In this document: one piece after another, positions 15,063 to 18,824 of the stretch
How the letters are laid out: each line of letters starts with the position of its first letter
How positions within the stretch are numbered: position 1 is the first letter of the stretch
From: a virus
Direction: 5' to 3' (one strand)
IMG/VR virus record: IMGVR_UViG_3300027793_000176
Location: 1 to 35,861 of that record
DNA length: 35,861 nucleotides
Program-made: the position numbers and the translations under genes
Notes under the pieces: generated by a model
Told to the model about the DNA's origin: nothing
Seen by the model: only the letters and a program-made list of their open reading frames with translations
Database searches by the model: none

Positions 15063-15518
15063 CTAAAGGCAGTTAGGACAAGGTGCGTGCAGATTGACTT
15101 GATAGTGACAATCCTCGCATATAGAATAACCACGAGGAATGTCAAGGTCATCCACTTGCGTGAACAACCTGTCGGTAATATCCACAATGGGTTCCTTGAA
15201 CTCCTTGCGAATTCTACCGTCAGCAGTGCGAGTCACTGAACCAATCCATTCAGACTGGTCAACTACCTCGCCAGGGTCATAAATATGAGATAGAATCGTA
15301 CCTAACCCAAAGCGTGCACGATTCTCAGCGTGGTCACGTTCCCACGGTCCTGAGCTATGAGAGCGCCACTCACGCTCTTGCATACACTCTAGACACATAG
15401 CATCTAGATGTTCACAATATACGCAGCCCATCACTGGACTCGTATCAAACGGTAAATCCAATATATCGTTATCCATCTCTTGACGCTCAGCTAACGAATA
15501 CACTTCGATACCATTCAC
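15063..15518 (-). CDS. Hypothetical protein with two cysteine clusters
   Basis: 151 residues. An N-terminal cluster (CVYCEHLDAMCLECM) and a C-terminal cluster (ICEDCHYQVNLHAPCPNC) each supply four cysteines in a treble-clef or rubredoxin-like arrangement. Between them is a charged segment (EWIGSVTRTADGRIRKEF) that looks beta. GTG start overlapping the TGA of the short ORF upstream. It may bind nucleic acids, or act as an assembly of zinc fingers at the head of the operon. No known family recognised. Confidence 0.68.
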   Translation of the reverse strand: MNGIEVYSLAERQEMDNDILDLPFDTSPVMGCVYCEHLDAMCLECMQEREWRSHSSGPWERDHAENRARFGLGTILSHIYDPGEVVDQSEWIGSVTRTADGRIRKEFKEPIVDITDRLFTQVDDLDIPRGYSICEDCHYQVNLHAPCPNCL

Positions 15519-15622
15519 TTGCTGTCTCCTTTCTTGAGCACAACCCCGTCACCCCTGTGCGGGGTTGTGCGACTTAGACTTGTAAGAAACTCAAGATACT
15601 TTCGATAATCTCTGATACGCAT
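15515..15622 (-). CDS. 35-residue basic leader peptide (possible)
   Basis: ATG 15622 behind AAGGGAACCT, stop overlapping the next GTG (GTGA). The peptide is basic (RIRDYRKYLEFLTSLSR, then a Gly/Lys-rich end). It is the first ORF after the proposed promoter at 15654-15683. It contains a perfect GC hairpin in its coding region, so translation of this leader could control folding and thus expression of the operon. Confidence 0.42.
   Translation of the reverse strand: MRIRDYRKYLEFLTSLSRTTPHRGDGVVLKKGDSK
15538..15570 (-). other. Perfect 11-bp hairpin in the leader
   Basis: GCACAACCCCG (15538-15548) pairs exactly with CGGGGTTGTGC (15560-15570), loop of 11 bases. On the minus strand it lies just upstream of the AAAGGAGACAGCA ribosome site of the 151-residue protein. 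Confidence 0.82.
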
Positions 15623-15653
15623 AGGTTCCCTTACCTCTCTAGACTTAGCCAAT

Positions 15654-15683
15654 ATTCTACACCCACCGAAGTGGAGATAGCAA
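15654..15683 (-). promoter_or_regulatory. Predicted sigma-70-type promoter for the minus operon
   Basis: On the minus strand TTGCTA (15683-15678) and TAGAAT (15659-15654) are separated by 18 bases. The spacer contains CCACTTCGGTGG, a hairpin with a UUCG loop. It lies directly behind a terminator and upstream of the next operon. Confidence 0.5.
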
Positions 15684-15712
15684 AAAGGGCTGACTGTTGC
15701 CAGCCAGCCCTT
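15682..15712 (-). terminator. Intrinsic terminator after the first minus-strand gene
   Basis: On the minus strand AAGGGCTGGCTG pairs with CAGTCAGCCCTT around a GCAA loop, followed by TTTTTGC. The one imperfect pair is a legal G-U only in minus-strand RNA, matching the direction of the gene that ends at 15717. Confidence 0.82.
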
Positions 15713-15716
15713 GATG

Positions 15717-16070
15717 CTAGAGCGAGGAGTCTTCCGACGGCTCTATGATTTCGTCGACGGATTCCAGCCTGAAGACCGTGCTCCAGGCTTCGCCACGCTT
15801 GTCAGTCTTGAACCAACCAGACACGCTTGCAATCGGGCGCTCTGGCTTACCGCTTTCGCCGGTGAGTTCAGCGGAATGCTCTTGTTGCTCCAGTATTCGG
15901 AGCGCTCCTACGGCATTGCTGAAGCAAATGAACGGTAGCGATGATTCAAAACCGCCGTTCTCATTGCGGAGGAGCAGTACGCCGGACGCGTATGGCTTGC
16001 CGTTCTTAGCAGTCCTGATGGACAGACCTGCAAGTTCGGCGTCTACGAAAGAAACGGTGTGCTTTGACAT
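15717..16070 (-). CDS. Hypothetical, possibly OB-fold (SSB-like) protein
   Basis: 117 residues. Beta-rich: VSFVDAELAGLSIRTAKNGKPYASGVLLLRN, then SSLPFICFSNAVGALRIL, then IASVSGWFKTDKRGEAWSTVFRLESVD. The 'V.G.......G...S.VFRLESVD' ending resembles the last strands of SSB. The C-terminus is acidic (IIEPSEDSSL), as in SSB tails that recruit partners. It is its own transcription unit, ending in a terminator, and is the gene nearest to the divergent regulatory region. A replication or recombination role is likely but unproven. Confidence 0.6.
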   Translation of the reverse strand: MSKHTVSFVDAELAGLSIRTAKNGKPYASGVLLLRNENGGFESSLPFICFSNAVGALRILEQQEHSAELTGESGKPERPIASVSGWFKTDKRGEAWSTVFRLESVDEIIEPSEDSSL

Positions 16071-16093
16071 TTCGACCTGCTTTCACTTTGGAG

Positions 16094-16652
16094 TTGTCGC
16101 CGCTCTTTTGAGCGACAAGACCCACGCTTTGCCACGGCGCGGGTTCCCTGCTGTCATAAGACACGCCCGCCCCCGGCGAGGCGTGGCGTTGACGGGAGGG
16201 TGCGGTGTGGCAGGGTCGTCTGTCGCTCAAGGCGGGAACCCAAAGTAGGTCGCAATGGCAACACCGTTCTGGAGTGCCGAACTGGGTCTGCCAAGGACTG
16301 CTGGCAAGCCGTCCGGTGGGCTCCGCAATGGCGGTTTTATCGCTCGGACATTTGCCTCGCGATGCCGTGCTCCGATGGGGCAACGTTCCGCTACCGGCGA
16401 GGTAAGACACCGATTGCGTCTGGTGGTTCCGACTGACGGTGAAGCCTACGGTTCTCAGCGGAAGCCCGACGAATCATCGGCGGTCCCGCTTCCCGTCAAG
16501 GCTGGCACAACGGTCAGCATTTATAGTTATCGGAACTATACTCAGCGCCCTGCTTAGGCTGGCAGAGACTGTAGCCTCTGCTCAGCCACGCAGAACAGTG
16601 CAGACAGCCCTGAGTCAAACAGTCTGGCGGTCTAAATGACCCCAGACTGTTT
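16094..16652. ncRNA. Candidate large structured non-coding RNA
   Basis: No reading frame here resembles a real gene, and the stretch is clearly GC-richer than its flanks. Visible helices: 16108-16117 with 16221-16230 (10 bp); 16119-16123 with 16213-16217; 16130-16135 with 16207-16212; hairpin 16162-16185; 16141-16148 with 16234-16241 (8 bp, crossing the first); 16189-16197 with 16491-16499 (9 bp); 16352-16360 with 16397-16405; 16427-16436 with 16455-16463; hairpin 16522-16540; arm 16540-16545 with 16610-16615 enclosing 16557-16567 with 16576-16587; 16617-16627 with 16642-16652. End-of-helix G-T oppositions are mostly legal wobbles in plus-strand RNA, which favours plus-strand transcription. 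Comparable in size to phage GOLLD/ROOL-type RNAs, but no identity is claimed. Confidence 0.55.
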
Positions 16653-16865
16653 ATATCTGGCTGAACTGGATATAGTACATACCCCAAAAGATTTTTCTGT
16701 ACAGTCCTGTGCCCCTGTTATCTGTCCTAGTATGTCCTATTTTGGTAGGACTTGGAAAAAATTTTTTCAACCAAACCGTTCGGTTAGGCTGTTTGAACAG
16801 GTTATATAGATAGTAGAGGCTGTTTTATTTTCTGCTAGCAAATCCCTTATGGATTTGCGTTACAG
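16653..16865. promoter_or_regulatory. AT-rich divergent regulatory region
   Basis: No gene is seen. The stretch has TATATC/GATATA arms (16652-16675), GTCCTA twice plus its complement TAGGAC (16725-16750), CTGTTTGAACAG, and a perfect palindrome GCAAATCC/GGATTTGC (16838-16845 and 16851-16858). Such symmetry suggests operator sites or an origin between the two divergent modules. No iteron set long enough to call an origin is apparent. Confidence 0.45.
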
Positions 16866-16875
16866 ACCGTATAAA
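16847..16875 (+). promoter_or_regulatory. Weak upstream tandem promoter
   Basis: TTATGG and TATAAA with a 17-base spacer. The -10 lies in ACCGTATAAACTAT, repeated nearly exactly 36 bases downstream in the stronger promoter. The -35 overlaps the 16838-16858 palindrome, a possible operator. Confidence 0.4.
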
Positions 16876-16882
16876 CTATCTG

Positions 16883-16911
16883 TTACAGCCTAGCTGTTCT
16901 AACCGTATAAT
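16883..16911 (+). promoter_or_regulatory. Predicted promoter of the terminase/late operon
   Basis: TTACAG (16883-16888) and consensus TATAAT (16906-16911), spacer 17 bases, 24 bases before the terminase GTG. The spacer contains the small palindrome ACAGCCTAGCTGT, a possible binding site overlapping the polymerase footprint. Confidence 0.68.
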
Positions 16912-16934
16912 ACTATTGTAGATGGGACAGCTCT

Positions 16935-18824
16935 GTGACTTTTCAGAAGAAGAATAATAACCCCAATGTGAGGGCTAGCGCAGAGGCAAAACTAAAAGTT
17001 CTAGCCTTAGTAGCAGAGGGGCACTCTGTTCCCAATGCGATGAGGCAAGTGGGGATGAAGCCCGACACCGTTAGAATATGGCTGGTGCGGGATAAGGACT
17101 TTGCCGCGAAACTGGAGCAAGCCCAGCAGGATGCCAAGTCGAACTCCATCAAGTCGCTGGGTATCGCAAAGGATGAGATTCAGTTTGCCCAGTTCTCTGA
17201 GATATTCTTAGGCAGCAAGATTTTTCCCCACCACCAAGATTGGATAGATTTGTTGGAGGGGCGCGAACCGAGCTGGCTCCATCCGTCGATGGTTTACGAG
17301 CCAGCCCAGTCCAACCGCTTTCTTATCAATGTGCCACCTGAGCACGCTAAGTCCACCGTCATCACGGTCAACTATTCGACTTATCGCATTGCTCTCAATC
17401 CGAACATACGAATCATCATCGTATCGAAGACCCTGTACAAAGCACGCGAGTTCGTGTATTCTATCAAGCAGCGTCTATCCCACCCACAGTATATGAAGCT
17501 CCAGACCACATATGGTCCTGAGGGCGGGTGGAAGCAGGACGCAGATACCTGGCGGGTCGATACTGTCTATCTTGGGAGCGATGCGAGGAATTCCTCTGAG
17601 AAGGACCCAACCATCCAAGCGCTCGGTATGGGCGGGCAGATTTACGGTGCCCGCGCCGATTTGATTATTCTGGATGACTGCATCACTACTGCCAATGCCC
17701 ACGAGTACGAGAAGCAAATCAACTGGCTGCAGAAGGAAGTTATCACCCGTCTGGGTAAGAACGGCAAGTTGCTTATAGTAGGGACACGCATTGCACCAAC
17801 TGATTTTTATAAAGAGCTTCGTGACCCTAAGTATTGGTCGTCTGGCAAAAGTCCTTTTACCTATCTTGGTATGCCCGCTGTACTTAGCTATGGCAGCAGT
17901 CCAAGCAAGTGGGAAACTCTTTGGGCTAAGTCTGACCAGCCCTGGGATGGCGACGATATCGAACCTGATGCGGATGGGTTATACCCAAAGTGGGACGGAC
18001 CAACCCTATATACCCGTCGTGGAGAAGTAACGCCGTATACCTGGGCGCTGGTCTACCAACAAGAGGATGTCGTCGAAGACTCCATCTTCCCACCTGACCT
18101 AGTACAAGGTTGCATCAATGGAATGCGCAAGCGTGGTCCGCTGCGACCTGGCTCTGCAGGGCACCCAACCCAAGTTGAGGGTTACACCGTAGTGGGATTT
18201 GACCCAGCTATGGGTGCGGGGCGTGCTGCATTTGTGGCAATGACCTACAACCGCCACGATGGAAAGATTTATGTGCTGGACTGTCTTGATATGGCAGAGC
18301 CAACACCACAGAAGATTAGGCAAGCGATTGAGGAGTTTGTCCAAAGGTACAAACCGCAAGAGCTTCGCGTCGAAATCAACGCCCACCAGAAAGCATACGC
18401 ACTTGACTCTGACCTCCAACAGTGGCTCTCCGCTTATGGATGTCGTCTCAATGCTCACTTCACTGGCAAGAATAAATGGGACACCAACTTCGGCGTCGCG
18501 GGAATGTCTACGCTCTTTGGAACAACCCTCAATGGCAAGCACCAGAAGAACAACCTCATTGAGTTACCAAGCACTGAAGGTTCTGAAGGACTCAAAGCTT
18601 TAGTCCAGCAGTTACTTACGTGGCGTCCCGATACTAGGGGCAAGACTGACTGTGTGATGGCACTCTGGTTTGGTGTGCTTCGCTGCCGAGAGTTTATGCA
18701 GCAAAACTCCTATGTTCAAAAGTATGCCCATAACCGTTGGGCTACGAGAGCACAGGCTTCTAAGCGTTATACGGTAAACCTTGATGAGATGGTTTCCGAA
18801 CAGTGGCAACAAATCTATGGATAG
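16935..18824 (+). CDS. terL: Terminase large subunit with N-terminal helix-turn-helix
   Basis: 629 residues; drives DNA packaging and cuts concatemers. Residues about 15-65 (LALVAEGHSVPNAMRQVGMKPDTVRIWLVRD) form a helix-turn-helix like those of small terminase subunits. The ATPase has a variant Walker A (VPPEHAKST, 133-141) and Walker B LIILDD (243-248). The nuclease domain begins at VVGFDPAMG (D423), with further acidic residues at VLDCLDMAEP and ALDSDL. No separate small subunit is visible in the window, so the N-terminal HTH may do its job. GTG start with GGGACAG upstream, directly behind the late promoter. Confidence 0.93.
   Translation: MTFQKKNNNPNVRASAEAKLKVLALVAEGHSVPNAMRQVGMKPDTVRIWLVRDKDFAAKLEQAQQDAKSNSIKSLGIAKDEIQFAQFSEIFLGSKIFPHHQDWIDLLEGREPSWLHPSMVYEPAQSNRFLINVPPEHAKSTVITVNYSTYRIALNPNIRIIIVSKTLYKAREFVYSIKQRLSHPQYMKLQTTYGPEGGWKQDADTWRVDTVYLGSDARNSSEKDPTIQALGMGGQIYGARADLIILDDCITTANAHEYEKQINWLQKEVITRLGKNGKLLIVGTRIAPTDFYKELRDPKYWSSGKSPFTYLGMPAVLSYGSSPSKWETLWAKSDQPWDGDDIEPDADGLYPKWDGPTLYTRRGEVTPYTWALVYQQEDVVEDSIFPPDLVQGCINGMRKRGPLRPGSAGHPTQVEGYTVVGFDPAMGAGRAAFVAMTYNRHDGKIYVLDCLDMAEPTPQKIRQAIEEFVQRYKPQELRVEINAHQKAYALDSDLQQWLSAYGCRLNAHFTGKNKWDTNFGVAGMSTLFGTTLNGKHQKNNLIELPSTEGSEGLKALVQQLLTWRPDTRGKTDCVMALWFGVLRCREFMQQNSYVQKYAHNRWATRAQASKRYTVNLDEMVSEQWQQIYG

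Follow-up and report, generated by a model that had tools for sequence, protein, structure and literature searches.

A phage gene and its frame-broken inverted copy are predicted to form a bulged rod RNA antisense to the gene

Upstream of the terminase gene of a freshwater phage, a small gene on the minus strand stands beside a shrunken, frame-broken inverted copy of itself, and on the plus strand the two are predicted to fold, through a covarying apical arm, into a single long rod. Comparison of related sequences supports this anatomy of gene, apex and copy well, and the feature is best explained as one non-coding RNA of about 0.9-1.0 kb, on the plus strand and antisense to a gene whose product resembles single-strand-binding proteins (SSBs). 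It is probable, though far from assured, that we are dealing with a new class of phage element, in which a small early gene is accompanied by an inverted copy of itself, broken in frame and bulged at regular intervals, and the two give an antisense-strand rod RNA coevolving with the gene base by base; which arose at least twice, from unrelated genes in two families and in both cases upstream of the terminase, where early and late genes divide; and which serves either locked-antisense control or a host-directed RNA device.

The stretch of DNA analysed (the window) is an IMG/VR record of 35.9 kb, which was compared with about 80 closer relatives collected from IMG/VR; contigs and loci other than the window carry L numbers. 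Its large terminase subunit (TerL) is 43% identical to those of Streptomyces phages and 62% identical to those of two unannotated phages. A host search for TerL relatives in GTDB genomes gave none, neither rod-associated gene (the SSB-like gene or that of the second family described below) was found in named phages, and BLAST of the rod region against named phages gave no match. Exact 23-base and earlier 26-base patterns returned no homologues; an exact 15-base pattern returned mostly chance contigs, which were later reused as a background set.

A preliminary description of the locus had proposed one nested RNA within 560 nt (16094-16652), GC-rich and without a gene. The segment is indeed GC-rich (0.61 in 16001-16500, flanks 0.43-0.53) and beats every shuffle on both strands (z -6.4 on plus, -6.6 on minus; these and all other z-scores and E-values are uncorrected for the search that led to the locus). 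It holds no weighty Rfam or PHROG gene match, but an inverted gene copy fills 16247-16531, and the RNA is about twice as long as had been thought, its 5' arm (15671-16083) lying outside the segment as the antisense of a conserved gene. Folded without guidance, the plus strand of 15640-16660 forms one rod of -531.5 kcal/mol, in which the gene antisense is the 5' arm, the covarying apex (16084-16247) the tip and the copy the 3' arm (Table 1). The z-scores on the plus strand at six such loci are -16 (window), -20 (L007), -19 (L004), -16 (L008), -25 (L028) and -30 (L079), and a six-sequence alignment of the whole RNA gives a consensus rod of 344 pairs. Complementarity runs over the whole length of the gene, as in a cis-antisense RNA, the 5' arm being by position the complement of 15717-16070. 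The base of the rod is kept in both the window and the L028 lineages, and the pairs flanking it compensate (GU/AC in the window type, GC/GC in L028).

Table 1. Features of the rod locus and its surroundings in the window
Feature	Position	Strand	Remarks
Rod base, 5' strand GTGGAGATA	15671-15679	+	Pairs with 16528-16536 around a GGA/GGA internal loop; read off the sequence
5' arm, complete antisense of the SSB-like gene	15676-16083 (aligned part 15676-16078)	+	Inverted alignment and unguided fold
Intrinsic terminator of the gene	15685-15712	-	Copied in the 3' arm at 16500-16531
Conserved SSB-like gene, 117 aa, predicted OB-fold	15717-16070	-	Homologues 52-89% identical in amino acids; on the strand opposite the RNA
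Apical arm, about 70 pairs, loop near 16171-16175	16084-16247	+	Covariation
3' arm, shrunken frame-broken inverted gene copy (ribosome site, whole CDS, terminator)	16247-16531	+
Rod base, 3' strand TATCGGAAC	16528-16536	+
3' domain of the RNA	16537-16616	+	Weakly conserved, rearranged among relatives
Perfect terminal hairpin AAACAGTCTGG..CCAGACTGTTT	16617-16652	+	Compensating change in L079
Promoter-like site ahead of TerL, GTTACA-18-TATAAT, 10/12	16882-16911	+	Consensus scan only
TerL with small-subunit-like N-terminus (fused terminase), first late gene	16935-18824	+	PHROG 38, E 4e-64; terminase small-subunit PHROG matches at residues 3-67

A reverse-strand match first revealed that the sequence following the apical arm is an inverted likeness of the neighbouring minus-strand gene. 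Local alignment of 16247-16531 with 16078-15676 scores 226, against a shuffle maximum of 70, and the locus therefore reads as gene (minus), apical arm and degenerate inverted copy. The copied stretch extends from the ribosome site through the 117 codons to the terminator and is interrupted by dozens of gaps, each 1-6 nt long, while substitutions are few. Copies match their own gene at 88-97%, with scores of 228-364, and usually score far lower on the genes of other lineages; that of the window reaches 228 with its own gene and 26-87 with the rest. Between the window and L004, 71 gene differences fall in pairs common to both, and 62 of these are compensated, the pair being Watson-Crick in both. 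Across the 344-pair consensus of six sequences, 55 pairs have changed on both sides, compared with 19 +/- 3 after shuffling (shuffle maximum 29). The 36 double-sided changes between gene and copy lie mostly at codon position 3 (27, with eight at position 1 and one at position 2), which indicates that the gene drifts synonymously and the copy follows. That the rod is a product of alignment scoring is countered by the shuffles, the cross-locus scores and the unguided folding, and also by 106 unrelated contigs without a match and five contigs found after the prediction.

The region is shared with seven relatives at 60-87% identity, and in six of the seven 16084-16247 forms a single long arm. Here 20 pairs have changed on both sides, a number reached in 0 of 500 shuffles, and 90% of arm cells are paired, compared with 37-47% when the partners are slid. 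The arm includes an invariant internal loop, GUCAUAARACACG / CGUGGYGUUGAC, and the model R1 matches only loci of the window type. Among the helices listed in the preliminary description, 16108-16117/16221-16230 is real, covaries and belongs to this arm. A second, 16189-16197/16491-16499, does not survive comparison and is excluded from the arm because each half pairs elsewhere with a partner that is better conserved: in all homologues the 5' side forms a local pairing with 16151-16156, and the 3' side, a piece of the copy arm, finds its complement on the gene arm near 15711-15716. A third, the hairpin 16557-16587, is present in the window, but other pairings take its place in most homologues. 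Compensatory changes, the absence of which among homologues was to have told against a large structured RNA, are thus present. The hairpin that ends the feature probably represents the 3' end or terminator of the RNA.

Several plus-strand open reading frames cross the feature (15745-16248, 16200-16436, 16255-16557 and 16439-16639) and were rejected as genes, given one weak PHROG match (E 0.02) and indels in homologues that break the frames; their partial protein resemblance arises because they carry the inherited copy of the gene. Frames starting past the apex were likewise rejected as mini-genes, the start codon not being kept (ATT in L027).

Gene and copy occur together. All 21 contigs with the SSB-like gene, of three lineage types, also carry the copy: 16 from the first set, four from a gene search made after the prediction (L273, L274, L280 and L289, one of them with a protein only 52% identical) and one from the background set (L122). 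No such inverted copy was found in about 60 relatives without the gene or in about 106 unrelated contigs. The idea that all relatives have the rod was accordingly dropped; within the family only phages with the SSB-like gene have it. Tests on the newly found contigs, like those on the second family, are independent of the search that led to the locus.

That second family emerged from a background scan in which usable IMG/VR contigs that shared a 15-mer by chance, 114 in all, were searched by gapped inverted alignment around genes. With a clean cut-off (score above 110 and more than 1.7 times local shuffles), eight matches were obtained, five of the SSB-like type and three of a second family (L118 5080-5885, L191 4096-4769, L193 1684-2513; the family is listed as L290-L304), with nothing else near the threshold. 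The gene copied in inverted form in the second family is a different one (83-110 aa, MALNIENNKGIAFYNDKG...), the terminase differs too, and the rod lies between minus-strand early genes and plus-strand TerS-lysin-TerL. All 15 contigs with this gene, representing about three lineages, have the copy, with scores of 112-197 compared with shuffle maxima of at most 75. This family is independent support for both the arrangement and the strand.

The two arms of the rod differ in their bulges. The 5' (gene-side) arm of the window type has about 20 one-sided bulges of 4-7 nt (GCUCUU, ACGCUU, GCUCC, GUUCUU and others), one per roughly 14 nt, whereas the copy-side arm (16247-16531) is nearly bulge-free. 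In minimum-energy folds, the window and its nearest lineage have 17-24 such bulges, compared with about two in shuffles and 0-3 in relatives without the SSB-like gene. Descriptively, in six related sequences, the autocorrelation of bulge spacing peaks at 13-15 nt, and four motifs, CGCT, GCTT, GCTC and GTTC, occur 3 to 5 times as often as expected (CGCT 32 against 7 expected, GCTC 23 against 6.4). U makes up 39% of bulge bases and 20% of paired 5'-arm bases. The pattern is not one fixed design, because the L028 lineage has bulges on both arms, GCUC-type ones on the copy side and others on the gene side. The regularity of the motif nevertheless favours a bound partner.

The product of the gene was modelled by AlphaFold2 at pLDDT 74 with the strand order of an OB-fold, b-b-b-a-b-b, and its best Foldseek/VIA matches are bacterial SSB and PriB (Foldseek probability 1.00, best E 3e-3; best Z 7.5, to SsbA, under the tool's caution line of 8), no weight being given to families that the VIA table lacks. 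Sequence profiles gave no Pfam match at E<=10 and only weak PHROG matches (0.07); with no sequence family and modest structural statistics, 'SSB-like' is a fold-level lead only. We tentatively suggest, at somewhat less than even confidence, that the RNA is a cis-antisense regulator carrying its own lock and that it probably controls the gene, its transcription and function both being inferred. The antisense arm could anneal to the mRNA of the gene, and the internal copy would keep that arm folded. The bulges would hold every helix at about 10 bp or less, easy to open and too short for RNase III, until a signal frees the antisense arm and the gene is shut down. OB-fold SSBs prefer pyrimidine-rich single strands, and because the bulges are rich in U and C, the likeliest signal would be the gene product itself, with the bulges as entry points for a single-strand-binding protein. 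Control would then be autogenous, as for gp32 of phage T4, but would act through an antisense rod. In T4, a phage single-strand-binding protein likewise sets its own expression, by autogenous repression, through RNA structure (PMC535899); gp32, however, acts on an mRNA pseudoknot and unstructured leader, without antisense RNA or an inverted gene copy. The protein of the second family is modelled with no confident fold (AlphaFold2 pLDDT 57), so SSB binding may not be common to both families.

A locked antisense arm could equally mean an RNA unrelated to the gene. The main rival to cis-antisense control is accordingly a structural or decoy RNA (a scaffold, a cage, a sponge with GCUC-type bulges, or a decoy for a host sensor or nuclease) with the gene merely on the back of one arm, which we regard as unlikely but deserving of serious weight. 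It would account for the regular bulges and their enriched motifs, for the position beside terminase genes in two phage families, and for the different structured RNA (z -3 to -14) that relatives without the gene keep at the same place. Host sensing has a precedent in cabRNA of staphylococcal phages, about 400 nt from the terS-terL genes themselves, which is sensed by a CBASS cyclase (PMC10686824), and phage structural RNAs therefore do meet host sensors. Like the rod, cabRNA is a structured phage RNA of the terminase region in which double-stranded parts matter (PMC10686824); it differs in lying within terS-terL and having no gene-copy rod, the rod here being upstream of TerL (15671-16536 against 16935-18824). 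An RNA unconnected to the gene should sometimes appear as a gene-free rod, and none was seen among the gene-less relatives or the unrelated contigs; gene and copy are always together, 21/21 and 15/15. Such strict co-occurrence, seen in both families, makes it more likely that the gene is involved.

The strand that folds can be read from the mismatches, since the alignments scored identity only and so penalised G.U and A.C, or A.G and C.U, alike. Read on the plus strand and pooled over 11 loci, which are related but of which every lineage leans toward plus, G.U exceeds A.C by 64:25 and A.G exceeds C.U by 97:15; in the non-coding apex alone, G.U and A.C number 19 and 5. In the second family, G.U numbers 18-27 and A.C 0-5 in 14 of the 15 contigs; the remaining contig has 12 and 1. 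All five contigs tested there have an antisense strand whose fold is 66-109 kcal/mol more stable than that of the sense strand. The asymmetry therefore indicates that selection acts on the antisense of the gene as the folding strand. Mutation biased by strand could also produce it, but explains it less economically.

These counts bear on two further readings. In one, the plus strand would act as DNA, forming a single-stranded hairpin or a cruciform that serves in replication, packaging or the making of genome ends. An SSB-like gene lies next to it, DNA too tolerates G.T and G.A mismatches, and the site is the divergent intergenic region at which the genome of the related Streptomyces phage Kumquat (L270, OR193800) ends, with a 264-bp direct terminal repeat (1-264 and 44584-44847). 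A cruciform in duplex DNA, however, folds both strands and would leave no strand bias, whereas the bias observed is strong; Kumquat has no such copy near its end, and to our knowledge these phages have no single-stranded DNA stage. We regard this reading as improbable. Slightly less probable again is that what folds is the mRNA of the gene itself (minus), whose long leader, the complement of the copy, would lock the whole coding sequence. The minus strand is also far beyond shuffles (z -14 to -31) and the ribosome site lies within the apical arm, but mismatch types favour the plus strand in every rod-bearing lineage tested, overwhelmingly so in the second family, and such a leader would need either to run through the terminal hairpin or to begin inside the copy.

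A locus without function, whether a decaying inverted duplication, one kept alike by gene conversion or an assembly artefact, would fit a copy whose frame is lost and from which many short pieces are missing, yet it is very improbable. Bulge positions are kept within the window lineage though the sequences diverge to 63-75% (286 shared paired columns, compared with 227 expected); gene conversion would erase the bulges and requires identity longer than 8-10 nt; and compensation at third codon positions, the many independent contigs and the second family all stand against it.

Membership of GOLLD or ROOL, raised in the preliminary description, finds no backing. No Rfam family, including GOLLD (RF01998) and ROOL (RF03087), reached its gathering score in the window, L290, L297, L304, L007, L028 or L289; at E<=10, 15500-17000 gave neither of the two, only implausible matches such as those to HIV and microRNA models; and ARAGORN found no tRNA in the whole window. 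GOLLD frequently, though not obligatorily, lies near tRNA islands. GOLLD and ROOL are likewise large (0.6-0.9 kb) structured non-coding RNAs of phages with unknown function, but they are multi-branched, self-contained RNA cages, in contrast to a single long bulged rod made of gene antisense and inverted gene copy. A known large ornate class (GOLLD, ROOL or OLE) is the least credible reading of all, for although size class, phage home and a 3' part commoner among phages than the 5' part recall GOLLD, with its conserved 3' and variable 5' parts (PMC12286853), there is neither a covariance-model match nor a tRNA in the window, and one arm complements a gene.

Several observations concern the surroundings of the rod. 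No convincing promoter candidate for the plus-strand RNA was found at the locus; a conserved box upstream of the rod, considered for that role, is accounted for as the beginning of a small ORF on the minus strand. This ORF (about 15519-15642, 36-52 aa, ...KYLEFLxSLxRT...GD..VL) is conserved, lies between the gene terminator and the next gene, and contains a covarying hairpin inside its coding sequence. On the other side, the right half of the terminal hairpin (TGACCCCAGACTGTTTA) overlaps a DNA element conserved far beyond rod-bearing phages and found without the hairpin partner in L014, L267 and L268. The element (16637-16668), TTTGACCCCAGACTGTTTAA followed by TATATAGTA, occupies the same place in L014, L074, L081, L267 and L268, persists in phages only 62% identical in TerL, and is probably a phage promoter or binding site. 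The 275 nt preceding TerL (16660-16935) are strongly conserved, contain more hairpins (AACCGTTCGGTT, TAGCAA..TTGCGTTACAG) and are a candidate late promoter and cos/pac region. Six relatives lacking the SSB-like gene (L020, L029, L039, L040, L076 and L081) have strongly structured RNA upstream of TerL, in several cases with a hairpin containing tandem G.A pairs (CCGAGC/GCGAGG) and a UAUUAUUA stretch. In L014 and L029, a minus-strand gene for a CxxC-containing (zinc-ribbon-like) protein replaces the SSB-like gene upstream of TerL, making the site a swap point for small early genes. In L280 (607-936), a stop and frameshifts, unless they are sequencing errors, interrupt the SSB-like gene; the rod pairing persists there with a lower score of 211.

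Among known systems, cis-antisense RNAs of bacteria and phages likewise complement a gene over its whole length from the opposite strand, but ordinary antisense RNAs lack an inverted, folded-back copy of the target in coevolution with it. Inverted duplication of a target gene gives rise to young MIRNA genes of plants and to hairpin-RNA genes of Drosophila. These too give a bulged hairpin RNA and are the nearest evolutionary parallel, differing in being eukaryotic and Dicer-processed; here the gene itself is one arm, the bulges are periodic and there is no RNAi. Obelisks (PMC11922315), viroids and hepatitis delta virus RNA are likewise rods of about 1 kb with protein coded in the rod or its complement, but are RNA replicons, whereas this rod is part of a DNA phage genome. 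In the open-access literature searched, no account was found of a gene accompanied by a bulged inverted copy that coevolves with it.

Such elements escape ordinary RNA finders, since one half of the structure is hidden beneath a gene and numerous short gaps set one arm apart from the other; a gapped inverted alignment run gene by gene detects them, so their spread is testable at once. If the interpretation is correct, it would add a further class of large phage RNA beside GOLLD and ROOL and a new use of both genome strands, with one coding for protein and the other serving as half of a structural RNA, the novel principle being a long-range RNA structure complementary to a whole gene and held by compensation against its wobble positions. 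The regular bulges would make it a natural RNA nano-rod. Should the lock model be right, the rod would embody a regulatory principle of a new kind, in which an antisense RNA contains a decoy of the very gene it targets and the product of that gene opens it.
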